Below, one piece after another: positions 7,698 to 40,940 of a DNA stretch of 64,000 nt. Source of the DNA: a virus. The stretch covers positions 87,108 through 151,107 of the IMG/VR virus record IMGVR_UViG_3300042516_004811; one strand, 5' to 3'. The translations under genes and the position numbers were made by a program. Below the pieces are notes generated by a model. That model searched no databases, was not told the DNA's origin, and saw only the letters and a program-made list of their open reading frames with translations. Within the stretch, counting starts at the first letter, position 1, and every line of letters begins with the position of its first letter.

Positions 7698-9059
7698 TCA
7701 GACAGGTGCGCTGTCGAATGACACCTTCACGAAGGCCTCTGGACGCTTCACCGCTAGGGCTAGGCGCTGCTCGGCCAAGATGACGATGGCGTTGCGTACG
7801 AAGAAGTCTGAGTGCTGTTCCGAAATACGGATGCTGGCTTCCTCGCGGTCGTACAACTGAGCGCCGGTACCGAAGGCACCAACAAGAGCAGTGCCCTCAT
7901 CGATGGCTGGGGTGTCCACCAGCGGCATGCGCCAGACCTTTGGCTCACCACCCATCGCAACCGAAACTGCGATTAGGTACTGACCCTGCTCGTCCTTCGT
8001 CAGTTCGATGTCTTCCCAGTCGTTCGGGTGTAGAACAACACCGCTTGGCTCGTAGTAAGCCAGGAACGAGAGGGTAGCAGCACGACGAATTGCGTCAGCC
8101 TTGGTGTCAGCAACTGGAGCGGTTTCTCCATCTGACCATGCGTATTCCTGAATGTTTGGTGTGTTGAGCACGCCGAGAAGGTTCTCGCCGGTTCCGTCAC
8201 CGTTCAGAATCTGGTTGTCTTCGAGGAGACGCAGACCGTACATTAGCTCGTTGTCGATGATTGAGCGCAGCTGTGGCTCATCGGCAAGAACGTTGCGGTG
8301 TGCTGCTTCCCAGTGTGCGAGTGTGCGCACTGGAGCCTGCTCGCCAACGAAAGCGAATGACGACTGTGGCTTGATGCCGAAGGTCGCGCTCGCTGCGCCG
8401 GTTCCACGCTCTGCAACTGTCGCAGCGTTGTTTACGCCATGACCAGCCTCAAGTGTGGTGAACCCGAGCTGACGGAAGTACTCGATAACCGCTGCGTTTG
8501 TGCGACGGACCGGGAAAAGGTCACGAACGCGCTTGGTACGCATTGGAGGAGTAACGATTGCGTCACGCTGAACTGAACCAAGGCCAGTGGTGATGTCACC
8601 GCTTGGCATACCTGAGAAGACGTCCTTGACGTTGTAACCACCTGAGAAGCTGGTGAGGGAAGCCTTCACCTGCCATGGAGCGGCCATGTTTGCGCCATTA
8701 CGTCCACCGTTGAGGGCCTTGAACTCAGCTGACTCAAGGAACATCTGGCCGATGCTCTTGATTTCACGTGATGTCAACTGGGTGAGGTCAGCGGCAGCAG
8801 CAGCATAGGCTGAAGAAACCGAGTCACCTGCTGGCTGATTTGACCAGCTGTCAACGTTTTCGATGGTCTGAAGGTCCGAAAGAAGCGACTTGATTTCTTT
8901 GATGTCGCGCATGTTCTTGTCGAACGCTGTCTTCTGGTCTGAGGAGACGACTACTGTGCCGTCCTCAACGCGGAACGAGTCGGCAATTGCCTTATTCTCG
9001 TCCATTTTGGTTCTTAGAGCTGACTGGAGCTCTGAGATGCGGGCTTTGTCTTCCGACAT
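7698..9059 (-). CDS. Major capsid protein, HK97 fold
   Basis: 453 residues. The first 110 or so are charged and helical, like the scaffolding delta domain that the prohead protease removes. The remainder matches the Phage_capsid family: T-P-P-M-R-T-K-R-V-R-D-L-F near residue 170, I-L-N-G-D-G-T-G-E-N-L-L-G-V-L around 285, and the C-terminal V-G-A-F-G-T-G-A-Q-L-Y-D-R-E-E followed by A-E-Q-R-L-A-L-A-V-K-R-P-E-A-F. It forms the icosahedral shell. An AGAGG ribosome site precedes the ATG, and a 166-base upstream gap may hold a dedicated promoter. It is about 23 kb from the portal gene, an unusual separation. Cleavage site not identifiable by eye. Confidence 0.95.
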   Translation of the reverse strand: MSEDKARISELQSALRTKMDENKAIADSFRVEDGTVVVSSDQKTAFDKNMRDIKEIKSLLSDLQTIENVDSWSNQPAGDSVSSAYAAAAADLTQLTSREIKSIGQMFLESAEFKALNGGRNGANMAAPWQVKASLTSFSGGYNVKDVFSGMPSGDITTGLGSVQRDAIVTPPMRTKRVRDLFPVRRTNAAVIEYFRQLGFTTLEAGHGVNNAATVAERGTGAASATFGIKPQSSFAFVGEQAPVRTLAHWEAAHRNVLADEPQLRSIIDNELMYGLRLLEDNQILNGDGTGENLLGVLNTPNIQEYAWSDGETAPVADTKADAIRRAATLSFLAYYEPSGVVLHPNDWEDIELTKDEQGQYLIAVSVAMGGEPKVWRMPLVDTPAIDEGTALVGAFGTGAQLYDREEASIRISEQHSDFFVRNAIVILAEQRLALAVKRPEAFVKVSFDSAPV

Positions 9060-18300: not shown

Positions 18301-21300
18301 AAGGGGGGCTTCAGAAGATGAATTTTCATCTACCTCAAGACCAAGCCTTGCAAGGCGAGCGTTGCGACGATTTATTGCACGACCAGCGGAAACTTGTTTC
18401 TGTGGGTCCAAAACATTAGAGATATCCACGTCTTCACCAGTACCAATCTGGCGAATGGCTTCACGTTGACGTGGCGTAAGTCGTCTTGATTGACTCGCCC
18501 TACGAGACTTAACAAATGAATCAGCATCCGCTTTCGATTTGAATTTTCTAGTTGGTTTTGGTTTAGGGCTGTTTAGGGCTTCAATTTTTTCATCGATTTC
18601 TTTACTAATTCTCGACCTGCTGCGTTTATCTCCACCAGCCCTAAGTTTTTCAATCATGGCATTCTTCATGGTGTCGAATTCTTCAGCTAGTTCTACTGAT
18701 TTGTCGACATCATCAGAATTTGCCTTCATCAGAACTTGGGTGTCGGCCATTTTTCTGATGGCTTTTTTATCATCGATTTGTGTTATGTCTTCAGAAATAG
18801 CATCAAGCTGTCTTGCTCTTGCATTTTTAGCAGCTTCCGATGGACTAAGTAGGCCGCGAGACTCCCTTAGTGACCCTACTTCTGCGTCAAATCTTGCGTT
18901 TTCCGAACGAGCACCAATTCCATACTTCTTTTTCCATTCACGACGTGCATCGTCGTACTTCTTCTCATGGAATTGAGCCTCTTCTATGGCTATATCAAGA
19001 AGCTCTTGTCTGGCTCTTGTTGCAGCATCTGTTTCTTCCGGTGTTAAGCCAGATGGGATTTCCGACTTTTCTATTTCATCCAGACTTTCTTTAGCGATAG
19101 TGTAATCTGTCGCTATTTCTGTAGCAACATCAAACATCTCCTCCTGAGTGAGTCCCGAATAGTCACTTCTGAAAGCTTTTAGAGTTTCTCTCCTGTCGGC
19201 AACCCTACGGACTAGCGCTTCTTCTGCCATTGCGTCTAGTTCTTCTGGCGTTATTCCAGGAAGAACGTCTGCTGTTGGTGAATCAATGTCTGGAGAATCA
19301 ACCTCATCCAGGTCATATGTTGCGCTTGCGATTGCTGCCGAAGTTTCAGCTCTCTTTGCCATGATGTCATCCATGAACTCCAGAACCGAGTCGACGTCAT
19401 CGCCGCTTATAAGTTTTTGTTCCCTCAGCGCATAAAGTTCAGCAAGGGCTTCTAGCGCCCATATTTCGCTTCCCTTTTCATATTCTCTTGGATATGCGCC
19501 AGAGAACTGAGCAACACCCTCTAGGCGGCTCATCACATCACCAAGTTCTTTAAGGTTTATCCCGTCAGCTGTTTGTGTCATCATGTTCATGATGTCGCCA
19601 GCGCTTAAGTCGTAAAGGCTATTTATCTTTTTCTGCCCTAGATAGTCGCCGCGCTTAGAGAACTGCGGAACCTCAAGCATTCCGGCTTTTGCTCTGCGGT
19701 CAATCTCCTCCATGAATCCCTGAGCCTGGACCAAGTGGGCAAATTCGTGTATCCCTATGTGTCTCGTGAATGATTTTGGACCATCTACGAGTCCAGCCAT
19801 GTGGCGAGCCGCAAGGTCAGCGTTTAGCATAAAATGTGAAAGAGCCATCTGAGATTCGGCGTCTGTTCTTCCGCCAATGGCAGCTATTGACAGGCGCTGG
19901 CCAGCACCCATGTTTGGAAGCATGGTTTCCTGGTTGCTCATAATCATGTCCATGTTGAAGTCGATTACCCCACGCATTTCCCCGGGTATTTTGACTTTTC
20001 TTGTTTTCCCAGTAACAGGGTCAGTCATGTCGATAATTTGAGCAGCATCGCGCATTAGTGATGTTCCGGCCTCGTGGTTCGAGTCCGAGTCGTACATGAT
20101 TGTTCCAAGAAACTTTGCTGCAGATGGGTTTCTCTTGAACTGAACTAGCAGGGACTCAAGGAATGCTCTTTCGGTTTCGTAATATCTTGCAGTATCAGCC
20201 TTGACCATGAGGTCTTGTTCTTCTTTTGAGAGTGAAGTCCATCCCTGAACGGCCTGTAGGCGGGCTGTGACAAACTGCTCGACTTGTTGTGGTGTCAGTC
20301 TTGGCTGGTCTACTCCGTTTGCGTTGACAAGGTTTACATCCCATCCGCGTGGGTCGCCATTATTAGCCATCTGTCGCAGTGTGTCAAATGCTTGACCAAG
20401 GTCTTCATTCGTGGCTCTCGCCTCATCACTTATGTCGACACCAAGGTCATCCAGTAGACTGAGAACTTCAGCATCAGCTCGCGCAATTTCATCTTGCGCG
20501 TTAATCATCCCATTAGTTGTTACGCGGAGATTTTCTGGGCCATCAACGTCACGCCAGTCAGGTGTTTCTATTCTTTCGCCAGTTGCTGCGTCATACCATG
20601 GACTGCGACCAATTCTTGCTGGGTCAGCATCAGCTAAGTCACGAAACCATCTTCCGTTGTAAACAAAGTCAAGTACATTTCGTGCACTGTTTCTAAGTCC
20701 CTGCATTTCTCCTTGGTTGGAGAGTTCTGCGGCCTGGCGAGCAGCAAATCTTGCGAATCTACTAGCACTGAACCCAAAGCAGTTTGAGCCCATGGCGTCC
20801 GTAAACTGGTTAGCTGCTGGCGTTCCTGGAGGACACCTAAACTTATTATTTTCATCTCTAAGTATTCCAACTGCTGCAGCTGCCCTTGCTAGCAATGAAC
20901 CGCCAGGAACTCGCGCACCAAGATTGGGTCCTAATGATTTTTCTTCTACGTTTTTGCCCTTGTTGAGCCTTCTTCTGCGTTCCTCCATTGTCATGCCTGT
21001 TGACATTGCAAATGGGTCGACAATTTTTTCAGAAGATGTGTCAACTTCGTCAGTCTTAGGGTTTACATCAAACTTAGATATTTTTATGTGTGGTTTATTT
21101 CGCAGCTTATTCAGCAGCTTGTCAAACGAATCAACTTCGCGTTCCTTTTCTGGAATCCAGCCAAAATTAGGCTCGATATCCATTCCGCGAATGCTCTCAA
21201 TTGTTGGCGATAGAACAAGCTTTGAGCCCGGTTCCCATCTGGCTTCTGGTTTCCACCTATACCCGTATGCGTTTTTTTCAACACCGGGCATTGATTCCCC

Positions 21301-21528
21301 GGTGAATTCACGCTTTTTATTGTCAGTGTTTCCCTCGTCTTGTTTGCGAGAGATGTCCCAACCAAGCGCCTTTACGGCTATATCTGCTTGAAGCCTGCCT
21401 GAGTAGACGCTTCCGTTGATTGATTGCTTGAAACGAAGCGCTCTAGCATCGAAGTCCCTACAGCAGGCAACTGGAGATACTAGACGTCCAGACGTTATTA
21501 CCCTGTGCTTTACCGGTTCACCCGACAT
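15316..21528 (-). CDS. Giant head-operon protein with zincin metallopeptidase domain (putative packaged polyprotein)
   Basis: 2070 residues. Visible parts in order: a unit with C22/C23; the Cys-pair module R-C-P-P-G ... F-T-D ... N-C-F-G (232-250); a zincin domain with H594-E-F-A-H598 and a downstream E-A-L-A-E-L-Y-A helix (693-700) that can supply the third ligand; long charged helical stretches (700-1300); L-S-S-G motifs at 1300, 1447 and 1638; and a C-terminal domain from about 1837 with L-V-H-E-T-T-Y, R-P-T-G-D-Y and I-H-F-S-I-N-H-R-V-S-G-H. A GAGG ribosome site precedes the ATG. I infer a polyprotein packaged in the head and cut at the LSSG linkers. The metallopeptidase substrate is unknown. 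Confidence 0.8.
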   Translation of the reverse strand: MSGEPVKHRVITSGRLVSPVACCRDFDARALRFKQSINGSVYSGRLQADIAVKALGWDISRKQDEGNTDNKKREFTGESMPGVEKNAYGYRWKPEARWEPGSKLVLSPTIESIRGMDIEPNFGWIPEKEREVDSFDKLLNKLRNKPHIKISKFDVNPKTDEVDTSSEKIVDPFAMSTGMTMEERRRRLNKGKNVEEKSLGPNLGARVPGGSLLARAAAAVGILRDENNKFRCPPGTPAANQFTDAMGSNCFGFSASRFARFAARQAAELSNQGEMQGLRNSARNVLDFVYNGRWFRDLADADPARIGRSPWYDAATGERIETPDWRDVDGPENLRVTTNGMINAQDEIARADAEVLSLLDDLGVDISDEARATNEDLGQAFDTLRQMANNGDPRGWDVNLVNANGVDQPRLTPQQVEQFVTARLQAVQGWTSLSKEEQDLMVKADTARYYETERAFLESLLVQFKRNPSAAKFLGTIMYDSDSNHEAGTSLMRDAAQIIDMTDPVTGKTRKVKIPGEMRGVIDFNMDMIMSNQETMLPNMGAGQRLSIAAIGGRTDAESQMALSHFMLNADLAARHMAGLVDGPKSFTRHIGIHEFAHLVQAQGFMEEIDRRAKAGMLEVPQFSKRGDYLGQKKINSLYDLSAGDIMNMMTQTADGINLKELGDVMSRLEGVAQFSGAYPREYEKGSEIWALEALAELYALREQKLISGDDVDSVLEFMDDIMAKRAETSAAIASATYDLDEVDSPDIDSPTADVLPGITPEELDAMAEEALVRRVADRRETLKAFRSDYSGLTQEEMFDVATEIATDYTIAKESLDEIEKSEIPSGLTPEETDAATRARQELLDIAIEEAQFHEKKYDDARREWKKKYGIGARSENARFDAEVGSLRESRGLLSPSEAAKNARARQLDAISEDITQIDDKKAIRKMADTQVLMKANSDDVDKSVELAEEFDTMKNAMIEKLRAGGDKRSRSRISKEIDEKIEALNSPKPKPTRKFKSKADADSFVKSRRASQSRRLTPRQREAIRQIGTGEDVDISNVLDPQKQVSAGRAINRRNARLARLGLEVDENSSSEAPLDRQVQNVLIPTMEAIDATSITEPFEIEAIVEVESGKVSGRSVGKDVQIDSLVTGRLMPKGRRPTKLTRQQESDAPEGKKKKRVVISLKEGDKGIFSSPGEDGESRFILPPGSLRVVSRGDDGTIYMEVSSQKNAVEAAESLRDSLSNGTDDAIWRKGASNRVGKVVNEYVTARRESRDIDSPRNDSDKQIAETNSSINEQVVDAGSSFGEGIDDVDLQGASESLSSGRSIYGPKQTRAQRTESRRSKISSNAKEIRNILSGKGSKEFPELSKENIDPRVAELIMNLPDEELHSLIEETAYRMHSGLDRRAHVRMRESEVDEMLITGTVRSPLASSSDDSPVASRRIERILRRNSSGTREDGFRRAMQSESLSSGAVKKGIGERLKGRAMNQIAERMGLDDEEKEVMELVVDTAAAMRFGPQAALTKLGMELARRGSRDLAEFVVEKLKEDDRINDEQAKMILKRMNRVAPEGLPEPLKDAAVSAARGARRMVDTPENRERIATARESAGRRARRLRDASAERVREMRDRITGVEAINDAGETGPPIGLPPVPVLRGEPRVTLSSGRVERTLKPGSISPQTSKIKSSRASISLGENWRDQIEVYEIGGKRVAFGVPNEQSWESDISDVEVLPINPFVISGLDETSDEGRELAIKWTLAGIGLNEEGNDSKTEASSILYAATRGDTDAQKRLDDLAEAGQKTVDASRKNIAQLRQETIDREAAAREKTLSELRRALPDASEEEIQRRARPSRSNGFSGLSVDDLYLVHETTYEPQYDSDGNLVIRPTGDYPMLDENGQPLLDDNGRPWDTYRGTIHFSINHRVSGHQQRETPEASNVIMIPLKDVIAANPGALDNLYGVDTYLTPPPGEPLKLPASAVRTLKLEKGETDPWGKVHTELESMGMSPDVRMYGGTDSVGLDADQRISGIAAQLDVENKMHSHSDNAHFEKTRKHDGMSFPVTPGIFANLSRNALLRLMHQDRWSGANNSLSETTRSVV
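16603..17631 (-). other. Three LSSG linker motifs in the 2070-residue protein
   Basis: L-S-S-G-R at 17617-17631 (residue 1300, context E-S-LSSGR), L-S-S-G-A at 17176-17190 (residue 1447, E-S-LSSGA) and L-S-S-G-R at 16603-16617 (residue 1638, V-T-LSSGR). Flanking sequence is low-complexity, as expected for linkers between folded modules. Same tetrapeptide as in the protease-polyvalent fusion; inferred to be processing sites. Confidence 0.6.
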
Positions 21529-21542
21529 ATCGGGGACCTCGG

Positions 21543-23120
21543 TTACTTATCGTCGATTGAGTCTTCGAGAAGCTGGAACTCGACGAGGGCCGCCATGAAA
21601 TCCGCATCACCCAGCTCCTCGCTCTTTTCCTTGCTTCCGGCAAGCCAGTTTGCGGGGATAAGGCTTTCGAGTTTAAGGTCGCGAGCGCGCTTCATAATAT
21701 GGCGCTTGGCAGCCTCTTTGTCTTTTGCCCTACCGAAAGCCTGAATTGCATTTCTTAGGTCGGACTCTGAAACGATTGGATATGAACCGTCAGGAAGAGC
21801 CATACCTTCCTTGGCAAGTTCCATTCTTCTCTCTTCAGAAAAAGCTCTCTTGATTGCAATCTCAGCTGCTTCTGCTTCAATCTGCTCAACCTCATCAGCT
21901 TCATACTTGTCATAACCGAGCACTTCGCCATCAAGGGCAACGAAGACGTCGTACGACTTTCCGTCAAATCCTTCGATTTCTACAGCATAAGCATCAAAAC
22001 CTTCGAAAACATCTGGCTCTACCGCAACAACATGTCCATCAATTGACTTGACGGCGATTTCTGCTGCTTCGGTGAAATCAATGAGCTTGTATTCAGAAAA
22101 GCCAGACTTCTGTTCAAATTCTGATTCATCGAGCTTCTGGAAGCCCAAAACTTCTGCGCTTGTTCCGTCGATGAATACTTCCTTGACGGAACCATCCTTT
22201 GTCTGTACGTCAACAACAAACATGTCTGCTGGCTGCGAGTAGCCGGAGTCAACAACAACACCATCGAACATTTTTTCTGCCAAACCTTCGACGTGTAGCA
22301 GTCCGGGCAGACCCTTTTCAGCAACACAACCACCTGGGCAGTCGTCGCAAACAGGAGAAGAACCCGCATAGGCTTTTCTCTCTATTGCACATAGATATCC
22401 GTGAGCGCCAAGGTCAGCTGTCTTTATTCCAAGGGACTTAATTCGTGACCTGCGAATGTCTTCCCACTCTGAGTCGCGAGCAGAGAATGACTTCTCGCCC
22501 ATAATGAGCTCATCGTCTTCGTCTTCCTCGTATTCCTCGTCCTCTTCGTCCTCGTCTGACATTTCTTCGTCTTCCGACATTTCTTCGTCGTCTGACTCTT
22601 CGTCATCATCTTCTGAGTCGATTTCTACCTCAAGCTTTGCAGCCTTCGCCTTGCCCATAGTTCTTTGAGCAGAAGACTCCTCGTCTTCGTCACCCATTGA
22701 CTCCATGTCCATTTCGGCTTCGTCAAGCGCTGCCTCTTCGCCCTCGTCATCAGCCATTATTACCTGGCCAGGAACTGGGACCCTCTTGGGCTTCATCTCT
22801 TTAGATGATTTCTCCATTGGCTCGCCGTCTTCGTCTTCTTCCTCTTCGGTGTCTGCCTCAAGGTCAACTTCCATTACGCCAACAACGCCACCTTCTGCAG
22901 GCTTCTTCTTCGGCTTCATTTCCGGAGCTTCCATGGCCATTTCCTTCTCCTCCAACTCAGAGGCGGGAACCATCTTCATCTCAACAGGCATGGCGCCGCA
23001 CTTTGCGCACAACTCCGAACCCTTAACAAAACCGCAGTCAGCGGCACTAGCGCCTTTGGCGCACTTAAGAACGTTGCCCTCGGCGTCAATGCTGACTGTG
23101 GCTTTCTCGTCGTAGCTCAT
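21543..23120 (-). CDS. Acidic head-region protein with PepSY-like repeats and DUF6582-like C-terminus
   Basis: 525 residues from ATG at 23120, chosen because ACGGGAG lies just upstream; an upstream in-frame ATG at 23165 lacks a ribosome site. An N-terminal zinc-ribbon-like part (C-G-F ... C-A-K-C-G) is followed by an extremely acidic low-complexity stretch, about residues 55-215, mostly D, E, S and M. Next comes a C-x2-C-x3-C segment (C-D-D-C-P-G-G-C), then two PepSY-like units, roughly 285-340 and 350-410. The end (M-A-L-P-D-G-S-Y-P-I, then L-R-N-A-I-Q-A-F-G-R) is a helical domain often found in phage capsid-region proteins. Its position directly after the protease gene would suit a scaffold or internal protein. 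That role is inference. Confidence 0.7.
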   Translation of the reverse strand: MSYDEKATVSIDAEGNVLKCAKGASAADCGFVKGSELCAKCGAMPVEMKMVPASELEEKEMAMEAPEMKPKKKPAEGGVVGVMEVDLEADTEEEEDEDGEPMEKSSKEMKPKRVPVPGQVIMADDEGEEAALDEAEMDMESMGDEDEESSAQRTMGKAKAAKLEVEIDSEDDDEESDDEEMSEDEEMSDEDEEDEEYEEDEDDELIMGEKSFSARDSEWEDIRRSRIKSLGIKTADLGAHGYLCAIERKAYAGSSPVCDDCPGGCVAEKGLPGLLHVEGLAEKMFDGVVVDSGYSQPADMFVVDVQTKDGSVKEVFIDGTSAEVLGFQKLDESEFEQKSGFSEYKLIDFTEAAEIAVKSIDGHVVAVEPDVFEGFDAYAVEIEGFDGKSYDVFVALDGEVLGYDKYEADEVEQIEAEAAEIAIKRAFSEERRMELAKEGMALPDGSYPIVSESDLRNAIQAFGRAKDKEAAKRHIMKRARDLKLESLIPANWLAGSKEKSEELGDADFMAALVEFQLLEDSIDDK

Positions 23121-23178
23121 AGAACTCCCGTAAATGCAGGGAAATGCCATAGGGACATTAACCAATCAATTTGCTTAA

Positions 23179-23237: not shown

Positions 23238-26200
23238 TTAATCGTTGGCGAAATTGTCTGGCTTAACCTTTCTTCTCTCTCGTTTTTTTCCAGAGAGTGT
23301 CTCGCCATCCTCTTCAATTCTTCTGCGTGCTGTCTCTAGCTGCTCTCTACTGAAGATGTCTTCAATGGTGTGATTCGTTCCAAATGCTTCATTGAATCTG
23401 TTGACAATCTGTTGTAGCTCGTTGCTGCTGAATCTTGGTTCATCGCCCTTTCTTGGGCTGAATACGGAACCTTTTCTCTTTGCTGACTCCGACAGATATA
23501 GGGCCATATCTGTGCTGTTTGTTATGTAGTTGCGCGTTTTTGTGCTGTTTTGCGGCGAATTCGGAAAACTCTTGTCAATAAATTCATTAAGTGCCTCATA
23601 AACAGCATGTTTCGCGTTGCTGAGTTCTGAATCCAGTTTTGAACCGGAGTCTCCATCTCGCCAAACAGAACTGGCGTCTGGAATGAGACCAGCCTTTATC
23701 ATCTGGTTGATATACGCGATTGGAACTCCGTTTTTCTTCCAGTCACTCTGTGCGCCAAGACCAACATCATCCATGCCGAACGACTGCTGCAGTCTTTCGC
23801 GCATTCTCTGTTGCCATCCCTTTTCTGGGATACCCAGATACTTGAGAAGAGCGTCAAGTTCAAAGTCCTTGCGCGCAGTCTTGTCAGCCCTTAGCTCCTC
23901 CGCAGAAACATCTGGCTCCTGTATGTCAGGAAGTTCTGCCTCATCAATTGACTCCTCCATGAGCATTTCCTCAACTGGTGAGTCACCCCTGGTGGCGCTA
24001 TCTTTATCGAATCGGCCGCTAGCACGGAATTGTGAAACCCTGCTCACCTCACCAAGTGAATCGTATTCCTCTGGGGAGATTGGGTTATTTTCTTCCTCGT
24101 CAAACCAGTGTGGGAATGCGTCCTTGCCAAATGTTTCGATTATGAATCGGTCACGCATGTTGGCCCTGCCAAGATTTTCCGCAAATCGTTCCATTACGTT
24201 CATTTCAGCAAAGTCTTCGTCTGCTCTTGTGACAGGGGCAAAAAGCCTCCATCCAGCAAACTCTGGCTGTTTTCCAAGTTCGGCAACAAGCATGCGTACC
24301 GCATCGTGGTTAATTCCGGCATCGGGGTCCGAAAGTTTTGCCGCATTTGGCTTGTCAAGGTTCAGCAGGGATGCCAGCTCATCATTGCTTAGTGGACGCG
24401 ATTGGGTCCAGGTAATGTCTTTTCTTCCGGTTCCTGGGTCGGTCTGGACAGAGTATTCCGTTGGAATTCTTATCGTATCCTTCAGTTTTTCCGTGGAGAG
24501 CATCCATGTTGAGGCTGTTGGGTTCTGGTTGGGGTTGTTTGACGAAACGCTACCAACAGTAATTTGTGGTCTGTCTGCCATTCTCTGTGAAACGTTGTTC
24601 ATCGCTTCGCGAATCTGTCTCTGTCTTGCATCAGTTCCAGAATCATCACTATTCACGTCAAGGGCTATGCCGGTTCTCTTGAATCCGTCCCATACGCGCA
24701 TTGAATAATCGAGTTCGCGTCTAGCTTTAGAGTTTGTTTCTGGGTTTCCAGACAACCTCAGACCTGCAATTCCCTGTGTGCTTGGTCTTGCATTCCTTGG
24801 TGCGCGCTGAGCTCCGCCCTGGCGCAGTCTGCGACCAAATCTTCCTTCTAGCTCCACATCGGTACGACCGCTAGAGAAGAACTCTTCTGGCGACGGACCA
24901 TCATTCCGCTTGCCAGGGCGACGATTTGCCCTCAGCCTGTCACGGTCAGCAAATCTTTGCCTGTCTTCGTCGGACCATGGGGTTTGACGGGAACGATTTA
25001 GTCTGCGGTTTCTGCGTCCGCGACCTGAGCGACCAGAGGAAAGGAAGTCAACGAACTGGTCCATGTCTGGACTATTGGACGCGTCCTCGTCACCGATGTC
25101 TTCGATTCCGTCGATGCTGGCGTCTTCGTCTTCTTTTTCCTCTTCTTTTTCTTTGATTATGTCGTCAATTGACTTGCCATCATCGCCACCACCAACTTCG
25201 TAGTCGCCAGGCTCATCGTCGTCGTCTTCGATTGTTGGTGTTGGTGCATTTATTTCCCCAGAGTATGGGTCAAACAGGCCTTCCGGCTTATTGAGATAGT
25301 CGGGCATTCTGCCGTCCTCAATAGCCTTGTCGATTGCCTCCCTTTGTCTTGCCGACACAGTGTCAGAGAGGTAAAGGTCGTATATTGCCTTGCCCGGGTC
25401 GATTGCTCTCTTTGCTCTAGTTAGAGCAACATAAACAATGTTGAGTTCCTCTCTTCTGGAGCGACTCTCAACTGGTTTTCCAGTTTCTGGGTCTATGTCG
25501 AGGTCTGGAGGATTACGGAAGTCAGAAGCAACGCGGACCCTATCCCACTCTCTACCCTTGGATAGCTGCGCGGTTGTTATTTCAACGTCAGCATTTGGCG
25601 TTTTTGCTGAAGTCCTCATGCGGCTTACTATGTCGTTGAGAATAAAAGCAGTTTCTTCGTCGGTATCGCCCTTGATAACAACAGTGTCTCCAAACTCTTT
25701 TCCAGAACCTTCCTTGTTTCGGAGACCGTTCTTCTTGAATTGGACTTTTCCACCGTAGTAATCACTATCCTCTAGGATTCTCATCATGTCTCTGAAGTAG
25801 ACACCCTGTGGCGCTTTTACGACTTTTCCAGTCTTGGTATCGGTGTATTCACCACCGCTATCAATGCCCCAGTCAAATAACTCAATGGCCCCCGTCCATT
25901 CGCCCTCACGCTTTCCGTTCACATCCGCGAGCTGGAGGTGCCACTGAACCTTGCTCTTTCCTTTACCGGTTGTGTCTGGAATTACCTCAAATCTTCTGGC
26001 ACGACTTGCTGTTGACGTTGAGGTGAAACCCGTTCCGCGCTGTGCAGATATGGTCTTTAGGTCATCAACATTTACGTCCTTGAGCTTGGAAAGATTGAGC
26101 ATCTTTCTCTCTGGAACAATGACTGGCGCCTTGATTCCTGGCGTTACGCCATTAGCGAACATGTTTCGGTATTCCCATGCCCTGCGTGGTGGGATTCCGA

Positions 26201-29200
26201 GGTTTTTATTGCCGCGAGTAACAAGCTTGTACATTGACTTGAGCTGTGCATACTGCTCTTGTTGAGCCCTGCGCTTTATTTCGCCAGCATCCCAAACATC
26301 ACCAATCCATGAAGACGCTTTCGGGCGCAACCCCTTCTTTGTCAGCTCTATCTGCTTATCTACCGGTGTATCCATTACGAACGACAAGTGCTCAAAGAAT
26401 GCTTTCATTTCTCTGTGTTTTGTCGCTGGAATCATCACAACGGGAGGGAGTTCCTGTCCGTTTCTGGTGAATCTCGGCTGGAAGTTTTGGATGAACTGCA
26501 ATGCTTCATAAATAATTGTTGCATTATCGCGCGTAAGGATTGCGTCAGCGTCCTTCATGTCGGCAACAAACTCACCAGCTGCTTCTTTTGAAAGAACATC
26601 CTTTAGTGACGCAAGCTCCCTGCTTCTTGCTGCCTCGTCCATATCGGCAAGAGCAACGTAACTATCTTCTACTTTTCGGAGCTCCTTGGAGAGAGCCTTG
26701 TTGATTTCAATACCTGAAACAATTTCATCATCAGACAAAGATGCAAGCTTTGTCTTGTACTTCTTGTCTGCTGCTTTGAGCTTTTCTCTTCTCTGGTCAA
26801 CAGTCATGCTTGTCATATCGAAATCATCACGAATGCCTTTTTGGGCAATTCTGATTCTGTCGCTCTTGTACTTTGACTCAATCTTTACTAAGGCTTCGCG
26901 GGCTCTTTCTGGGGAAAGGCCATCCATGTCGAAGTCGTTGTTGATTACATCAACAGCCAAACCGGCAACGTGGTGGAATCTGTCTTCTATTCCCAATTCA
27001 GAATCGTCAATATTGCCCTGTGACTGAATCAGGTTTGCCAACCAAGCAACAGTTGGTCCATAACGGAACGACTCATTCAATGGGAGGTCATAGTCGCCGT
27101 TTAGTGAGGAAAGAATGTCTTTAGCACCACGGAACGCATAAACTGCTTGCCTCTTGTCGCCAACAAGTAGAATAGAGAGATTGTCTCTGTTCTTATTTAA
27201 CACCTGCTCCATTACTGGGTTCATATCTTGAGCTTCGTCAATCATGAACATTGACAGCGGGTTATCCTTAGTTGCGTATCTCCGCGCGACCGTGGCCTGG
27301 AAGTTCTTGCCTTTCTGGCCTGTCTTTACAGAGATAACCACACGTCCGTCAGGGAGAATGTCCCCAACTTTTGTTTCCTTTGGAACCTGAACGTTTGCCT
27401 CTAGGTCTTTTCCTGTGGCATGACCAATCAAGCCAGGGTCGCTTCTCAGGTCTGGGTCGGTCATCGCCCAGAGTTTGTCTGTCTGCCCTTGGTCTGGAAG
27501 GACGATGCTGTCCGGGTCGGTAACCATGTTCCAACCATCATTGGCGTCTTTCAACCACTGGTCTGGAATTGAAGGCCATTCAGTGTCAACAATTGAATCA
27601 GATGCTCTGCCCTTGTTGATGTCTGCTCTCTTGAAGTGCTGTGGGCCGATTTTCTCGTCAGCACTGTTTGCGAATGCCTTGAGTGCCTTGTTAAGAATGT
27701 CTGCATAGTCTCTAACTGTTAGATTTACTCCCGCTATTGGGGTTGGCATTCCGGCACCCTTGCCAGCAGAGAACTCTTCTCTATCGGTGAGCTTGAGTGC
27801 TTTAATCCAGCCGTTTGAGTCAGATAGCTTCAAATAACCAAGGTCTCTCCAGCCCGGGTCGTACCCAACCGTCTCACCCTCTGTTCCATCAACTTTTGTG
27901 AACTTGATTGTTTGAAGTTTTCCGTCTTTGTCTCTTCTGGCAAATGTCCCTCTATCCTGGGTGGAAATTTTTACCTTGTCGCGGAACTTCTTGCCATACT
28001 TTTCGTCACCCTGACCGAGCAACAATGACCACCAAGACAGCCTGTTTAGTGTTGATACACCAGTGTTGTCGCTGAATTCAGCAGCAGCCTCTTCTTCATT
28101 CTTCTTGTTGAAAACAACGTAGTACGCCGTTGGTGACTTAAATTTGTCTCTAAGTTCAGAAAGTTTTGTATCCCTGTCCTCTTCCGACATTGAGGAAAGG
28201 TCAAACTTGTCATCATCGGTGCTGTACTTCTCGGAGATGAAATCCAGTTTTTCCTTTAGGGCTTCCGGTCGATTAATGAATCGCGTGATATCAAACTCGC
28301 GTTCAGCTGCGGCCATCAATGCCTTGAGGGTTGTTGTTTTCCCTGAGCCGGCACCAGCAGAAACAGTCATGATGCCTTTTTGCTCGCCAAACATTAAAGC
28401 AAGACCAGTATCGATGATGTCTTTCTGCTGCTCTGTTGGCTCATAAGAGAATCCATATAGGCTTCCGAAATGTGCCGTTCCTGGTGAGCGTTTTACGGCA
28501 CGAGCTTCGTCACCGCTCCTATGCTGGACTGAACCACGCGATGCACCACTGGACAAGCGTCCAGATACGTCCTTAGCTAACCCGTCGCGACCCTCACGAC
28601 GGATATAGCCGCCGCCGATAATGTCTTCATCAACGGTATTGAGGTTGCTCATCATTGCGCCGCTAGACAGGGCCTCGGTTGAAGCCTCGCCGGAGGCCTT
28701 TGAGCCCTTCCTCGTTCTCTTTGGCTTTTCTGCTGGAGCTGGAGGAACTATGTCCTCAATGTCTTCGTCGCCAAATGTTCCACGCACGCCACCAATTGTC
28801 GGAATCTTTGGTGAATCCTCAAATCCAACAATCATTGGGACTTCAGCGGTTGCCTCGTCCTTGCCCTTGCGCTCGCCATCCGGAATACCAGCACGCTTGC
28901 GCATGGTTGCCGAACGATTCATCAGGAAGTCAACAGCCTGCTGAGCTTGAGTAATTGCGTCTTTCAATGCCTCTGGACGGCTACGTAGAGCCTGGAGCCA
29001 TGAAGCCAAGTACGGTGCGTGGTCTTTTCTCACTGGAGCTTCAACACCCATTGCGCCAAGAGCAAATGCCGAACCAATCTCGGCAATAAGTTCTTCGAAT
29101 GCATAATCAGCATCACCAAACTGTTTGCCAAGTTTTCTGTTCATTCTTGATGGGTGTGATGTCCAGTGAACGGTCTCGTGGAATAGCGTTGAGTAGAAGT

Positions 29201-32141
29201 TCAATGGGTCCTTGAACTGCTCAAACTGCGGCATTGTGATTTCGTCAGCCATTGGGCTATAGAAAGCCCTATTGCCCTTGACTTCCTTCCATGCTGGAGC
29301 AATTTCTTTGATTACATCTTCCAGGTCCTGGAGTCTCTGCTCTGGTGACAACTGAAGAACATCATCTAATTCATACATTTCTGGTGGGAGACCCTCAACG
29401 TCTGCGACGTTCCAGACTGTGGTTGTGTGGAAGCCGCGATAGCTGCCAACTACATTTCCATCCCTATCGAGTATGGCTGTCTCTGTTTTGTTCGGAGCAA
29501 GAATCTGGACGCCACGCTTTTCCATGGCCTCCTTGCTTATTTTGCCGCCAATCTTTTTCCACTGACCAGCTCCGGCCCAGCGATTCGTCTTGTAGCCCCT
29601 AGCGCTGCTGATTAGTGTCAGCATCAGCTGGTTTGTTCCCTGATAAACACGCTTCTGGCCAGTTGCGTTTCTCGCCATGATTTCCAGTTGGCGCCACGGG
29701 ATTTCCCATCTCGCATTGCCTGGATTCTTGGCAATTTCTTCAAGAGCAGTAATAATCTGCTCTGTCATCTTGGCATAAACATCATCCAGAATTTGCTTTT
29801 GCTCTTCTGGGGTTACATTGTCGGAGTCAAGAACCTTTCCAGAGGAAAGTCTTTCACCTTCTTTGAACTTGTTGAGTGGGCCCTGATACTTAACCTTGTC
29901 AAAATCGCTACGCTTATTGTCTGGGGTGCTGAGGAAGCGCTGGTAACCGCTTGAGAGTTTGGTTACGTCTCCAGCATCCTGCTGACGCATTTCGCGCTCT
30001 GACATCTTCTCGACACGATTCATGTATTTGTCGAGTTCGTTGATTGCCTTACGCAGTCTCTTTATTTGGTCTGGGTCACTTGCCCCATCAAGAACACCCT
30101 GTAGCTGTTCTCTCTGCTCTTCAGCCATGGCCATTTTGTCAAACGACGCAACATCTGGGTCATCCACACGTGGAACCTCATAGAGCTTTCCACTCGAAAG
30201 TCCTGTTGCTGGCTTTGATACTGGCGCGCCAGGTGCGCCTGGCTTCTTGAGCTGCTCGGGGGATGGCTTTGGGTTGCGTATTGAGCCAGGACCGTCTGGG
30301 GTTGGGTCGGCCTGCGCAAGGGGTGTGCCTCGCATGAATAGGCCCTCACCAACAATTCCATCAAGGTCAACGTCTCTTGCGGTGAATGGGTCAAAGTCCT
30401 GAGCACCAGAGCTGGTGAAGAATCTTCCACGAGAGCGACCGCCACCAAGATTTGGTCGGTCAACCATTCGGCTACCAATTGCCCTGCCTAGGCGGTAGCC
30501 AATAGCCTTTTCTTCTATGCCACCATCATTTAAGGATTTTTTTTTTAAATTATCAAGCGCGGTATCAATTGCGTCGATGAGCTCAAAGCTGGCCCCCGAA
30601 GTGATAACAATTCCATCCGTATCCACATAAGCGTCGGCATAGTGGTAATCAAAAATTGGGTCGAGAGCCTGCTTTACACGGAACGCATACTGCGGCATTA
30701 CCGGAATGCAGTATGCGCCATTCATGTCATCGCCCTCGCGACCGAAGTCAGCGAGGCTCTTGTATTTACGATTCTTCTTGCGCTTACGCCCAATAATTCC
30801 TCTTAGAGCAGCTACGGCTAGTTCGCCTGGATACTTAACCTCAAGGTCCTCAAGGTAATCCTCTTCATTTGCTTCTGTCTGGTATTCGTAAGACTTCTTG
30901 ATGACAACATCACCCTTGACTACACCCTTAGGAATGACTGCAAATCTGCACTTACCTTCAGATTCAATGTCGAGGTCGATTATCTGGCAAGAGTTCCCAC
31001 CCTTGAAAAATACGCAGTTGGCGCACTTGACGCCGATGTTCTTGACATCATTTTCTGCGGCCGATGTGTACCCAGCCCAAACGCCATCAGCGTCTTCATT
31101 AAACTTGCCATAGCGCTTAACTATCTTAAGAAGAGAATCGCGGAGGTCAGCCTCTTCTGAGTCGATATTGTTCGGGTCGAACTGCGGACGAGGCTTTTTA
31201 CCTGAGTCCTCGTAATCAACTGGCGGAAGCGGAACTATTTGCATCCCAGCCTCGCCTGGCTTGATTGCAACAGGGATTCCCGGCATCTGCGAAGGACGCA
31301 TAATTCTTTCTGGGACTGACGGCATTCCAGGTGAAGCCATTGGCATCATTGGCATTGGCTTTGGAGCCATAGGAACACGCTGTGGTGGGCCAAACATAAA
31401 TCCGGCAGGTCCACGGCTGTAGTGGCACTTGTACTTGCCCACTTTTCCTTCGTCTTCCCTACGCGAGAAGGTAATCATGTCATCAGCAACGTCATCAATC
31501 ATGACCTTTGAACCGATAACCATCGATAGCTGCTTTTGGATTTCGTCTGTCTCGTCCTCTTCCATCATCATCATCGGTGATGGGGTCATCATTCCGCCCT
31601 TTTCATCTGACTTAACTGAGATTGTTCCAGTTAGCTGGTTTGCACCATGCAGAACGGGGGAGACTTCGTATAGTTCAAGCTCAAAGATGACATTTGCCTG
31701 AGATTTCTGGTCATACTGAGCGCGTAGCGTCTTGTAACCAATTGACCACTCTTGCTCCTCGCCAAAAAAGGCAACATTTGCAAAGGCTTCCCGGCCCTTC
31801 TCGGACTGAAGATTGAACTGGACGCGAGCAAAAAGTCCACCAATTCCAGCCATTTTCATCTTCATTGGCAAGCGATTATCGGTGGGAGGAACTTCGTAAA
31901 TCTCTAGAACTTTACCAATCGGGTCATTCCAGTTATGGCCCCATACAACACGTGGTTTTCTACGCATCAAGCTCTTTGTAAAAGCGCCAGTGGCAACGAT
32001 GTCACCAACTGAGTCCTTGTTTCCGATGCCAGCAACGAAACACTCGACAATACCCTGCGCCTCATTGAGGTTAACTGAGTCGGCCTTGCCCTCGGCAGTG
32101 CCTAGCGCAGTTGTCTTGTATTCAAAAACCTCACCTGGCAT
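23238..32141 (-). CDS. Prohead protease fused to ArdC-N / zincin / UvrD-like helicase polyvalent protein
   Basis: 2967 residues, 8.9 kb. Residues 1-175 match the HK97 (S78) prohead protease: G-N-K-D-S-V-G-D then G-A-F, catalytic H69 (V-V-W-G-H) and S123 (E-W-S-I-G-Y), and E-L-Y-E-V-S-P-V. About 355-400 is a four-Cys module (C-A-N-C ... C ... C). An EF-hand-like D-V-D-L-D-G loop follows near 590. Residues 770-1110 resemble ArdC-N (W-E-I-P-W-R, Y-Q-G-T-N) plus MPTase (H988-E-T-V-H992, then E-E-L-I-A-E). Residues 1210-2260 are a superfamily 1 helicase: A-G-A-G-S-G-K-T near 1264, D-E-A-Q-D, V-G-D-K-R-Q-A-V-Y-A-F-R-G-A and V-A-L-T-R-A-K. The C-terminal 540 residues are unassigned. LSSG-type linkers separate the modules. 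GGAAGG precedes the ATG. Confidence 0.88.
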   Translation of the reverse strand: MPGEVFEYKTTALGTAEGKADSVNLNEAQGIVECFVAGIGNKDSVGDIVATGAFTKSLMRRKPRVVWGHNWNDPIGKVLEIYEVPPTDNRLPMKMKMAGIGGLFARVQFNLQSEKGREAFANVAFFGEEQEWSIGYKTLRAQYDQKSQANVIFELELYEVSPVLHGANQLTGTISVKSDEKGGMMTPSPMMMMEEDETDEIQKQLSMVIGSKVMIDDVADDMITFSRREDEGKVGKYKCHYSRGPAGFMFGPPQRVPMAPKPMPMMPMASPGMPSVPERIMRPSQMPGIPVAIKPGEAGMQIVPLPPVDYEDSGKKPRPQFDPNNIDSEEADLRDSLLKIVKRYGKFNEDADGVWAGYTSAAENDVKNIGVKCANCVFFKGGNSCQIIDLDIESEGKCRFAVIPKGVVKGDVVIKKSYEYQTEANEEDYLEDLEVKYPGELAVAALRGIIGRKRKKNRKYKSLADFGREGDDMNGAYCIPVMPQYAFRVKQALDPIFDYHYADAYVDTDGIVITSGASFELIDAIDTALDNLKKKSLNDGGIEEKAIGYRLGRAIGSRMVDRPNLGGGRSRGRFFTSSGAQDFDPFTARDVDLDGIVGEGLFMRGTPLAQADPTPDGPGSIRNPKPSPEQLKKPGAPGAPVSKPATGLSSGKLYEVPRVDDPDVASFDKMAMAEEQREQLQGVLDGASDPDQIKRLRKAINELDKYMNRVEKMSEREMRQQDAGDVTKLSSGYQRFLSTPDNKRSDFDKVKYQGPLNKFKEGERLSSGKVLDSDNVTPEEQKQILDDVYAKMTEQIITALEEIAKNPGNARWEIPWRQLEIMARNATGQKRVYQGTNQLMLTLISSARGYKTNRWAGAGQWKKIGGKISKEAMEKRGVQILAPNKTETAILDRDGNVVGSYRGFHTTTVWNVADVEGLPPEMYELDDVLQLSPEQRLQDLEDVIKEIAPAWKEVKGNRAFYSPMADEITMPQFEQFKDPLNFYSTLFHETVHWTSHPSRMNRKLGKQFGDADYAFEELIAEIGSAFALGAMGVEAPVRKDHAPYLASWLQALRSRPEALKDAITQAQQAVDFLMNRSATMRKRAGIPDGERKGKDEATAEVPMIVGFEDSPKIPTIGGVRGTFGDEDIEDIVPPAPAEKPKRTRKGSKASGEASTEALSSGAMMSNLNTVDEDIIGGGYIRREGRDGLAKDVSGRLSSGASRGSVQHRSGDEARAVKRSPGTAHFGSLYGFSYEPTEQQKDIIDTGLALMFGEQKGIMTVSAGAGSGKTTTLKALMAAAEREFDITRFINRPEALKEKLDFISEKYSTDDDKFDLSSMSEEDRDTKLSELRDKFKSPTAYYVVFNKKNEEEAAAEFSDNTGVSTLNRLSWWSLLLGQGDEKYGKKFRDKVKISTQDRGTFARRDKDGKLQTIKFTKVDGTEGETVGYDPGWRDLGYLKLSDSNGWIKALKLTDREEFSAGKGAGMPTPIAGVNLTVRDYADILNKALKAFANSADEKIGPQHFKRADINKGRASDSIVDTEWPSIPDQWLKDANDGWNMVTDPDSIVLPDQGQTDKLWAMTDPDLRSDPGLIGHATGKDLEANVQVPKETKVGDILPDGRVVISVKTGQKGKNFQATVARRYATKDNPLSMFMIDEAQDMNPVMEQVLNKNRDNLSILLVGDKRQAVYAFRGAKDILSSLNGDYDLPLNESFRYGPTVAWLANLIQSQGNIDDSELGIEDRFHHVAGLAVDVINNDFDMDGLSPERAREALVKIESKYKSDRIRIAQKGIRDDFDMTSMTVDQRREKLKAADKKYKTKLASLSDDEIVSGIEINKALSKELRKVEDSYVALADMDEAARSRELASLKDVLSKEAAGEFVADMKDADAILTRDNATIIYEALQFIQNFQPRFTRNGQELPPVVMIPATKHREMKAFFEHLSFVMDTPVDKQIELTKKGLRPKASSWIGDVWDAGEIKRRAQQEQYAQLKSMYKLVTRGNKNLGIPPRRAWEYRNMFANGVTPGIKAPVIVPERKMLNLSKLKDVNVDDLKTISAQRGTGFTSTSTASRARRFEVIPDTTGKGKSKVQWHLQLADVNGKREGEWTGAIELFDWGIDSGGEYTDTKTGKVVKAPQGVYFRDMMRILEDSDYYGGKVQFKKNGLRNKEGSGKEFGDTVVIKGDTDEETAFILNDIVSRMRTSAKTPNADVEITTAQLSKGREWDRVRVASDFRNPPDLDIDPETGKPVESRSRREELNIVYVALTRAKRAIDPGKAIYDLYLSDTVSARQREAIDKAIEDGRMPDYLNKPEGLFDPYSGEINAPTPTIEDDDDEPGDYEVGGGDDGKSIDDIIKEKEEEKEDEDASIDGIEDIGDEDASNSPDMDQFVDFLSSGRSGRGRRNRRLNRSRQTPWSDEDRQRFADRDRLRANRRPGKRNDGPSPEEFFSSGRTDVELEGRFGRRLRQGGAQRAPRNARPSTQGIAGLRLSGNPETNSKARRELDYSMRVWDGFKRTGIALDVNSDDSGTDARQRQIREAMNNVSQRMADRPQITVGSVSSNNPNQNPTASTWMLSTEKLKDTIRIPTEYSVQTDPGTGRKDITWTQSRPLSNDELASLLNLDKPNAAKLSDPDAGINHDAVRMLVAELGKQPEFAGWRLFAPVTRADEDFAEMNVMERFAENLGRANMRDRFIIETFGKDAFPHWFDEEENNPISPEEYDSLGEVSRVSQFRASGRFDKDSATRGDSPVEEMLMEESIDEAELPDIQEPDVSAEELRADKTARKDFELDALLKYLGIPEKGWQQRMRERLQQSFGMDDVGLGAQSDWKKNGVPIAYINQMIKAGLIPDASSVWRDGDSGSKLDSELSNAKHAVYEALNEFIDKSFPNSPQNSTKTRNYITNSTDMALYLSESAKRKGSVFSPRKGDEPRFSSNELQQIVNRFNEAFGTNHTIEDIFSREQLETARRRIEEDGETLSGKKRERRKVKPDNFAND
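24864..30416 (-). other. Eight SSG linker motifs (LSSG type) in the protease-polyvalent fusion
   Basis: Positions and residues: TSSGA 30402-30416 (576), LSSGK 30186-30200 (648), LSSGY 29946-29957 plus next codon (729), LSSGK 29835-29849 (765), LSSGA 28656-28670 (1158), LSSGA 28542-28556 (1196), LSSGR 25029-25043 (2367), FSSGR 24864-24878 (2422). They fall in low-complexity linkers: the ArdC-N/metallopeptidase module lies between the fourth and fifth, and the helicase between the sixth and seventh. Inferred processing sites. Confidence 0.65.
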
Positions 32142-32244: not shown

Positions 32245-34332
32245 TTAAACAGTTTGGGCGTAATTCCAGGTACTTCTGGCAACATCCATAGCAATTTCAG
32301 CCTGTTCTTTGGCAAAAAAGTTGGTGTACATGTCGACAATTCCCTCACGAATCATCGACGCTCTACTATCTCCGTCAATGAGATTAAGGCTGTCAATGTA
32401 GAGGCGCTGTATTTCATTGACGTTCTCCCTGTTGAGTGACTTAATTACACCAACCTGAGAGTCAACGGTCTTTACCGTGTCAAGTTTTGGCAGGCTCTTT
32501 ACTTTGATTCCGTTAGCTTCGCCAAATTCTTTTCTAGCATCGTGAGAGTCGCGAATAATCGCAGAAAGAATTGGCTTAATGTCCTCTTCCATCTGTCTAT
32601 CCCAAGTATCGATAGCTAGAACTGCGTCCACCTCAAGGGTTCCAGCAGATAGGGCCTTTCTGGCCTTCATTCCAGTCACCTTCTCAAGAACGACCCTTTG
32701 CTGTCTTTCTATGACGCGCTCAATGCTTCTTGAAAGAATTTCGGCCCATCTTTCGATAGCCATCTCCGACTTGTCTTCGAAGTAAGAGTCATTTTTTTCT
32801 TCTATTTCATCTTCTTCAGTCTTTGTTTCAACTAGAGAAGCGTCTGCGCCAGCCATCGTCATTCCGGGTACTGGGGGCGGCGGAGTTACTGGTGGTGCGG
32901 CCTCGGCCGGAACGGTTGTTTGGGCCAACTCGCCCGCACCAGCTGCTTCAGCCATCGCTCCCTGCATTGTGTTTGGGTCAAGGGGTACTGGTGCCCCAGG
33001 AGGCATTGGGGCACCCGGCATTGGTGGCATTCCAGGCATTCCAGGCATTCCAGGCATTCCAGGTGCGCCGGGGACCTGTGCTGCGTTCTCCTCCATCTTC
33101 TTCTTGGTGTTGGCAATCGGAATGAGGTTCGGGTTTGCTAATAGTGAGTCAGCAAGGTCGGCTTCAACTTCCTTGCGTGACGAGCCAGTTCTGTACTCGT
33201 TTGCCGAAATCAGGCCGCCCTGGAACTCCTGGAGGAGGTATCTGTCTCGCTCTTGCTTGTAAAGCATAAGGATGGGGACTTCCGAAGTGTCGAAGTCGAC
33301 GTAGTACTTATCATCCAGTTCATCAAGCGCGCGAGCAATTGGCTCTAGGTGAGGAAGCATTGTTTCCATCCAGAAAACGCGAATTTCCTCTGCTGCGTTA
33401 CTAAATGTTCTTCCAGCAGCATTTCCGATGACCGACTCGGGAACACCAAACGCAGAAAGGATTTCCTCCTTGGTGACCTGACGCATCTGAATATATGCGG
33501 CATCTCTTGGGGAGGCCGAGGTGTCGACGTAATCAACTCCGTCATCTGCCGCAATTACCGTTGTGTGGCCAGTCTTCGCGAGGTTCCCACGAAATCTAGA
33601 CTTCAACTCTTCCTTGTCGTCTTCGTCGATTTCTCCACGAACAACAAGGAGTCCGCCTGGTCTACCGTCATTAAGGAGGTAGTTGCGGTTATAAAGCTTG
33701 GCAAGGTTTTCAATTTCTATCGCAACACCGGCTGCTTCCAGCGGGGTCAGGGACAAGTATGGGTCGAGTGGGTGTGGTCGCCTAATCCAGCAGACATCTT
33801 CTGGTTTTAGGAATTTCTTCTCACCATAAGGCATCATCACTTCGTAGCCCTTGACGAAAGTCTTGGGGTCTGGAATTGGCGCAGTTGATTGCGGTGGAAG
33901 AAGGTTCAGAGCAATTATTCCGCCGTCTCGACCACGGATTTTCTCGATAAAAACACCGCGAGTACCGAGAAGCAACTGAGCCGAAAGCCGGTAACGGAAG
34001 ATAAACGAGTTCTCCCCAAGGTTGGCACGATTGTTAAGAATCTCCAAAAGATTGGACCTGTTTGCTTCGCGCCCAACAACAATCTCACCCATATTGGAGT
34101 TGTCTTTGCGGAGAATTATTGGAAGTCTCGCCTGGTTCCCGGAAATAGCGTCAATACAGCGATTAACCCACGTAATTTTGGACATGCCCTCGCGGTATGC
34201 GCGCTCAATGTCCCACGAGTCCCTATAGGACTTGCCAACGAACGATGGATTGCTTGAAATAGGCAACCCGTAGCCGAGCTGCTTAGCCTGAGGTCCATCA
34301 AGGGACTTGTTTTGTCTTGAGTTCCACGCCAT
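32245..34332 (-). CDS. Portal protein with collagen-like insert and long C-terminal extension
   Basis: 695 residues. Residues 1-395 match HK97-type portals: W-V-N-R-C-I-D-A-I-S, P-P-Q-S-T-A-P-I-P-D, W-I-R-R-P-H-P-L-D-P, L-L-N-D-G-R-P-G-G-L-L and I-L-S-A-F-G-V-P-E-S-V-I-G-N. The portal dodecamer forms the DNA entry/exit vertex and docks terminase. About residues 417-447 form a collagen-like G-M-P / G-A-P run, followed by an Ala/Pro-rich linker. A charged helical domain of some 190 residues ends the protein. The extension is beyond the normal length of the family (about 400-500) and may be an internal head component. No convincing ribosome site is seen. Confidence 0.92.
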   Translation of the reverse strand: MAWNSRQNKSLDGPQAKQLGYGLPISSNPSFVGKSYRDSWDIERAYREGMSKITWVNRCIDAISGNQARLPIILRKDNSNMGEIVVGREANRSNLLEILNNRANLGENSFIFRYRLSAQLLLGTRGVFIEKIRGRDGGIIALNLLPPQSTAPIPDPKTFVKGYEVMMPYGEKKFLKPEDVCWIRRPHPLDPYLSLTPLEAAGVAIEIENLAKLYNRNYLLNDGRPGGLLVVRGEIDEDDKEELKSRFRGNLAKTGHTTVIAADDGVDYVDTSASPRDAAYIQMRQVTKEEILSAFGVPESVIGNAAGRTFSNAAEEIRVFWMETMLPHLEPIARALDELDDKYYVDFDTSEVPILMLYKQERDRYLLQEFQGGLISANEYRTGSSRKEVEADLADSLLANPNLIPIANTKKKMEENAAQVPGAPGMPGMPGMPGMPPMPGAPMPPGAPVPLDPNTMQGAMAEAAGAGELAQTTVPAEAAPPVTPPPPVPGMTMAGADASLVETKTEEDEIEEKNDSYFEDKSEMAIERWAEILSRSIERVIERQQRVVLEKVTGMKARKALSAGTLEVDAVLAIDTWDRQMEEDIKPILSAIIRDSHDARKEFGEANGIKVKSLPKLDTVKTVDSQVGVIKSLNRENVNEIQRLYIDSLNLIDGDSRASMIREGIVDMYTNFFAKEQAEIAMDVARSTWNYAQTV
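33019..33066. repeat. 9-bp tandem repeats coding collagen-like GMP triplets in the portal
   Basis: GGCATTCCA-type units (plus strand) repeat about five times with one variant, giving P-G-M-P-G-M-P-G-M-P. Nearly identical codons imply recent slippage expansion; copy number is likely variable. Confidence 0.8.
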
Positions 34333-40784: not shown

Positions 40785-40940
40785 ATGGATACTCCAGAAG
40801 AAAGAATCGAGAAACTAGAGAAGAACCTCGCTGAGGTTGAAGCTGACCGAGACTACTGGCGCTCAATGGCGGTTAGGGTTCTTCAAGAAATCAATGATGC
40901 TAAAGCGGAGATATTGAAACTATCGACCGGTAAACACTAA
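40785..40940 (+). CDS. 51-residue coiled-coil micro-protein
   Basis: ATG at 40785 to TAA at 40940. It is helical and charged (E-R-I-E-K-L-E-K-N-L-A-E-V-E-A-D-R-D), with a heptad-like spacing of I, L, L and V. It fills the gap between the ParB-like and PP-loop genes exactly: 4 bases after one stop, and its TAA shares a base with the following ATG (TAATG). This tight fit is the main evidence that it is real. Function unknown. Confidence 0.65.
   Translation: MDTPEERIEKLEKNLAEVEADRDYWRSMAVRVLQEINDAKAEILKLSTGKH

Follow-up and report, generated by a model that had tools for sequence, protein, structure and literature searches.

We analysed a 64,000-nucleotide stretch of viral DNA (the window), contained in the 151,107-base IMG/VR virus record IMGVR_UViG_3300042516_004811 (G000), and identified within it a giant fusion gene whose product begins with a head maturation protease of the S78 family. 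We read this arrangement as a protease-led phage polyprotein, in which the sole recognisable head protease of the phage is fused to a payload that it would carry and cut free, and we put the probability of this reading at roughly 0.6. The fusion, its conservation, a motif repeated in its linkers, the co-variation of that motif in trans and a run of ten adenines (A10) with stops in the other frames are facts of the sequence. The steps of the mechanism we infer from them, with a confidence that falls from slippage and cleavage to injection. The main features of the fusion are as follows.

23238..32141, minus strand: fusion polyprotein of 2,967 amino acids (aa), a single uninterrupted frame of 2,967 codons
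31620..32060, minus strand: S78 prohead protease domain, residues 28-174, with H69 and S133 (Pfam Peptidase_S78, E 3.7e-10)
30537..30546, minus strand: A10 run (T10 on the plus strand), from the last base of codon 532 to the end of codon 535
29523..29783, minus strand: ArdC-N domain, residues 787-873 (Pfam ArdcN, E 4.6e-14)
28956..29285, minus strand: MPTase-PolyVal zincin, residues 953-1062, HETVH at 988 (Pfam, E 3.4e-38)
25404..28391, minus strand: UvrD-like superfamily 1 helicase, about residues 1251-2246, in separate stretches (Pfam UvrD-helicase, E 3.2e-10, and AAA_19, dispersed across this region; PHROGs)
23241..24866, minus strand: C-terminal domain, conserved, no fold match (comparison with relatives)

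Each Pfam match lies above its family cut-off, and the PHROGs assignments (head maturation protease, anti-restriction protein, DNA helicase) are concordant with them. These profile searches confirm the HK97-type protease, ArdC-N, zincin and superfamily 1 helicase modules proposed in an earlier reading of the letters alone (the original prediction), which had also given the stop-free frame correctly, leaving its strand unstated, and had placed HETVH at residues 988-992. Its catalytic residues stood in part: H69 is upheld, there is no serine at residue 123, and the nucleophile is S133 within WSIGY, both H69 and S133 being invariant in the protease alignments A2 and A3. It overlooked the C-terminal domain of about 500 aa, the repeats of the linker motif (LSSG) and the A10 run. 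The C-terminal domain extends over 505-554 aa beyond the last motif in most relatives. Structure prediction of the modules, which had been suggested as a check, gave for this domain a model with a mean pLDDT of 80 and no PDB or BFVD match at E 0.001, while the model of residues 1-651 was poor (mean pLDDT 49). At about residues 585-600, past the N-terminal module and ahead of the first LSSG, the stretch 'FTARDVDLDGIVGEG' resembles a calcium loop (DxDxDG) and is kept in many relatives. No match to a MuF domain was obtained in Pfam and PHROG scans of the fusion. On its domain make-up the fusion is a polyvalent-type protein, joining ArdC-N/MPTase to other disparate domains and coded beside virion genes; the association of ArdC-N, MPTase and helicase invoked by the original prediction matches the description by Iyer et al. 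(PMC5512222).

Comparison with related sequences shows that a clade of mostly uncultured actinobacterial myophages has kept the fusion, which is not a one-off. The complete frame is 100% identical in three further IMG/VR contigs (L002-L004). A scan with the protease domain returned at least 599 relatives, and in nearly all of the best 80 loci, which were examined, that were long enough, the protease opens a frame whose length ranges from about 2,900 to more than 3,500 aa and which continues into ArdC/MPTase, the helicase and the C-terminal domain. Identity to the window in fused relatives is 72-100% for the protease and mostly 27-57% for the payload. Two loci (L090 and L091) combine S78 and helicase without ArdC or MPTase, and the frame is broken in three others, exactly at the A run in L007 and L042 and elsewhere in L074. 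A chimeric assembly, or a stop overlooked between neighbouring genes, has a practically negligible probability and was rejected because the frame recurs identically in three other contigs and open fusions are found in dozens of diverged phages; no point was found in its favour, and the genuine fusion supposed by the original prediction is borne out on the same grounds.

In a protease tree built without the sister fusions, which were found later, the fused clade makes up one side of a single branch (SH-aLRT 100). Beside it stand two phage-like contigs binned in a marine metagenome-assembled genome, whose proteases are free frames of 441 and 447 aa, 68-74% identical to the fused proteases, and the free proteases of actinobacterial genomes and phages are more distant. 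Since free proteases both adjoin the fused clade and lie outside it, the fusion is derived. Sister lineages with proteases 70-79% identical carry other fusions of 1,027-2,455 aa. Hundreds of contigs hold relatives of the fused protease, and those examined show several payload architectures.

The tetramer LSSG is present in six copies in the fusion, against 0.07 expected from composition, and is joined by one FSSG variant (all found by sequence search).

30189..30200, minus strand: LSSG, residues 648-651
29946..29957, minus strand: LSSG, residues 729-732
29838..29849, minus strand: LSSG, residues 765-768
28659..28670, minus strand: LSSG, residues 1158-1161
28545..28556, minus strand: LSSG, residues 1196-1199
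25032..25043, minus strand: LSSG, residues 2367-2370
24867..24878, minus strand: FSSG variant, residues 2422-2425

These sites divide the window's fusion into the protease with its N-terminal module, ArdC-MPTase, the helicase and the C-terminal domain. Across 29 dereplicated fusion proteins LSSG outnumbers every other tetramer (159 copies in 80,122 residues), and just 6 of 169 [LF]SSG sites fall inside the regions matching five conserved domains, which account for 70% of residues. Many sister fusions repeat GLRS or GMRS likewise, 3-11 times where the repetition is clear; fusions with this motif include L252, L258, L236, L217, L223 and L250, and in L252 the payload additionally gives matches to sigma70 region 4 and HTH.

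The simplest reading of the motif is that [LF]SSG is the cut site of the fused S78 protease, which is favoured as the cutter because no other peptidase is shared by all fusions; five scanned sister fusions contained no Pfam peptidase besides S78. Cutting might instead fall to the zincins (MPTase domains) in the giant proteins, for which autoproteolysis was proposed by Iyer et al. (PMC5512222) and for which motifs are at hand, HETVH in the fusion and a conserved HExxH in the family of a second giant protein. We consider this unlikely: besides the sharing of S78 by all fusions, the fusion of one relative (G013) has lost MPTase and ArdC and still retains eight GLSSG, and the GLRS/GMRS fusion frames contain no HExxH. 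More doubtful still is a motif that is no cut site and serves as a docking or packaging tag, binding the giant proteins to the capsid or a chaperone. Its repetition, its place in linkers and its occurrence in two proteins that probably enter the head would suit such a tag; however, the motif tends to flank each module, often twice per linker, which a tag would not need and which better matches module release. Proteolytic release of the payload, as supposed by the original prediction, draws indirect support from a repeated, co-varying linker motif, the co-variation being seen with the second giant protein.

15316..21528, minus strand: second giant late protein, 2,070 aa, with three LSSG and the zincin motif HEFAH; a putative substrate in trans
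7698..9059, minus strand: major capsid protein, without LSSG (sequence search)

The 2,070-aa protein gave no Pfam or PHROG match above threshold; it is present in 19 of 21 sister records. The L/F position and the residue that precedes the motif vary among lineages and agree within one phage, and the motif subtype (RLSSG, SLSSG, GLSSG or FSSG) in this protein, which is not homologous to the fusion, tracks that of the fusion with a permutation p = 0.00015 in a test that ignores the relatedness of the phages. Fusion and 2,070-aa family are paired as FSSG/FSSG in G011, as GLSSG/GLSSG in G013, where 13 of 13 sites are GLSSG, and as RLSSG/RLSSG in G017 and G018. G011 encodes a third giant protein of 4,564 aa (L151:608-14299) with eight FSSG and four LSSG; GNAT and RNase_T domains were also observed in it, together with two copies of a sequence that matches the C-terminal end of the 2,070-aa protein in the window. 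Among frames of at least 100 aa in the record's first 89 kb, LSSG occurs only in a 1,210-aa RNase_T protein, in two copies. This protein, probably a further member of the processed set, lies just beyond the window (G000:C1:82426-86055, minus strand; L157:6426-10055) and combines the RNase_T exonuclease domain with an HEYGH zincin motif.

Besides the neglect of relatedness in the permutation test, several points weigh against a polyprotein processed by its own S78 protease. The main weakness is that the major capsid protein, the classical substrate, contains no LSSG. A QLSS(R/H)E sequence conserved near capsid residue 95, at the end of the N-terminal region, is only suggestive and stays unchanged where the motif becomes FSSG, and a search of the capsid N-termini for a co-varying site gave no clear motif, only suggestive similarity. 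Since zincins are present in both giant proteins, the cutter could be a peptidase other than S78. In close relatives that are not fused, LSSG is not enriched and there is no A run, and because of the former the motif is not attributable to the protease family as such. Functions of ArdC-N, helicase and MPTase are assigned by homology.

The A10 run codes Lys533-Lys535 plus the final base of codon 532, and no other homopolymer in the window reaches a length of nine; AAGAAAAAG is the synonymous counterpart of the run. Of 35 distinct contexts, 29 hold A10, four hold A11 and two hold A9; one of the A9 cases is followed by G and stays in frame, and the other (L007) is out of frame. A run of A9-A11 is kept in all ArdC-bearing relatives read at that place; it is absent from L090 and L091 and from free or differently fused sister proteases, in which the longest run is A8. 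The three lysines are encoded as AAA AAA AAA in 27 of 28 proteins, against 1 of 65 for KKK elsewhere in the same proteins, and in all members counted both other frames meet a stop 2-6 codons past the run. The run is probably a slippage site yielding a predicted free protease of 536 or 538 aa beside the polyprotein, similar in length to the free proteases (423-529 aa) found in close relatives, marine and other, that lack the fusion. The protease placed within the fusion by the original prediction is therefore truly fused but probably not obligatorily so, two forms being expected. Transcriptional slippage is favoured over stimulated ribosomal frameshifting, a less probable alternative, because no Shine-Dalgarno-like stretch was present within 25 nucleotides upstream of the run and there is little downstream structure on average (mean RNA folding z = -0.55 overall, about -2 in the window's own lineage).

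It is rather unlikely that the run is, in place of a programmed slippage site, a DNA on/off switch (phase variation) or a neutral stretch. The L007 and L042 assemblies do show A9 and are out of frame there, although these cases may be sequencing errors, and a switch, while possible, would be compatible with slippage; a neutral run does not fit the codon choice kept at this site and not at other KKK. On the reading favoured here, the sequence of events may be envisaged as follows. Slippage at A10, most likely by RNA polymerase, would cause part of the product to end at residues 536-538 as free protease, and unslipped late messenger RNA would give the complete polyprotein, whose protease portion would carry the payload into the prohead. 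During maturation the protease would cleave [LF]SSG between modules, both of its own chain and of the 2,070-aa protein, and the freed ArdC/MPTase, helicase and C-terminal pieces would exit the head along with the DNA. Once injected, these pieces may take effect soon after entry into the new host, perhaps countering restriction or acting on the ends of the incoming DNA. The payload could also be a head component with a structural or scaffolding role, broken down or retained and never injected, since it is coded in the head operon and its ejection is something we infer; its helicase, ArdC-N and zincin are, however, enzymes or DNA binders of invasion-type proteins (PMC5512222) and not known scaffolds, and we regard a purely structural role as rather improbable.

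Two further genes adjoin the fusion.

32245..34332, minus strand: portal protein, directly upstream of the fusion (PHROGs)
21543..23165, minus strand: 540-aa protein, its C-terminal part resembling the end of the free protease encoded by Gordonia phage GMA6

The minus-strand order is portal, fusion, 540-aa protein, 2,070-aa protein, several smaller proteins and major capsid protein, so that the fusion gene is placed between the portal and capsid genes. The 540-aa protein matches the C-terminus of the GMA6 free protease at 58% over 77 aa. No second S78 protease was recognised in record G000, and nine records checked have one S78 each and no ClpP. The presence of tail sheath and tube genes identifies the phage as a myovirus. 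WhiB was found in 10 of 10 records tested, Corynebacterium alone having it within the control set, and the portal's closest named relatives come from phages of Brevibacterium, Gordonia and Streptomyces; for both reasons the host is probably an actinobacterium. The window also contains a phosphoadenosine phosphosulfate reductase-like gene (PHROG 2302) at 40940-42085 on the plus strand, a possible auxiliary or DNA-modification gene.

The polyprotein strategy is best known from eukaryotic viruses. We hold it to be an even proposition that the genes described here form a Gag-Pol-like system of tailed phages, with a protease-headed injected polyprotein that is cut inside the prohead at repeated, lineage-specific sites, processing of a second giant polyprotein in trans, and free and fused forms made by slippage. 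If our reading is true, phages employ a polyprotein strategy in which the head protease serves as carrier, and the proteins and fragments that enter the head can be predicted from the motif. The motif and its cognate protease would then amount to a sequence-readable rule for uncultured actinobacterial phages, and the A10 run would be a rare candidate for programmed slippage within a phage head gene.

Polyvalent proteins were described by Iyer et al. in 2017 as containing ArdC-N, MPTase and helicases, with self-release by inbuilt peptidases proposed (PMC5512222). The fusion resembles them in bringing ArdC-N, MPTase and helicase together in one giant protein near virion genes. Unlike theirs, its peptidase is N-terminal, a canonical S78 and the phage's only one, whereas the assemblin-like peptidases of polyvalent proteins are reported to be always C-terminal (PMC5512222); the passages of that paper considered here make no mention of a linker cut motif or a slippage site such as are predicted here. 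The original prediction knew of no described phage in which the maturation protease bears the payload: the N-terminal carrier is indeed new, but peptidases of the assemblin-like kind were already on record within polyvalent proteins. The MuF-effector and portal-effector fusions of the same source likewise have a head protein bearing an effector domain, and differ in that there is no MuF domain here and the carrier is the maturation protease. A search of the open-access literature after 2017 for a maturation protease together with polyvalent proteins found none, and an earlier description elsewhere is possible.

Among head proteases, that of SPN3US cleaves ejection proteins in trans at a shared motif (PMC10052503) and carries at its C-terminus a propeptide that is believed to direct the enzyme to the core (PMC7411985). 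SPN3US and T4 share with the proposed system a head protease with several trans substrates, a shared short motif and trimming of its own C-terminus (PMC5694885, PMC7411985, PMC10052503), but their substrates are separate genes, the protease has no payload and the motif is another. Homologous portals and S78 proteases (36-44% identity) are found in Gordonia phages GMA6 and Chidiebere, Brevibacterium phage Cantare and Streptomyces phage Gilgamesh, with a capsid protein homologous to the window's in GMA6, Cantare and Gilgamesh; the protease is free in GMA6 and Cantare and NUDIX-linked in Gilgamesh gp52, and there is no LSSG series in them. Gilgamesh gp48 (L013:79-13953), shortly after the portal gene, is a 4,624-aa protein of unknown function. 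For the A10 run the nearest likeness is dnaX of Thermus thermophilus, in which an A9 run, accompanied by stops in the two non-zero frames, gives about half short product by transcriptional slippage (PMC1088944, PMC5009743). The two have in common an A run, a full-length product in one frame and close stops in both others; the Thermus case is a bacterial replication gene with slippage, whereas here slippage is predicted from sequence in a phage protease-polyprotein. New in the present system, as read from its sequence, are an N-terminal canonical protease as carrier, a repeated, lineage-specific motif shared with a second giant protein and a predicted slippage site.
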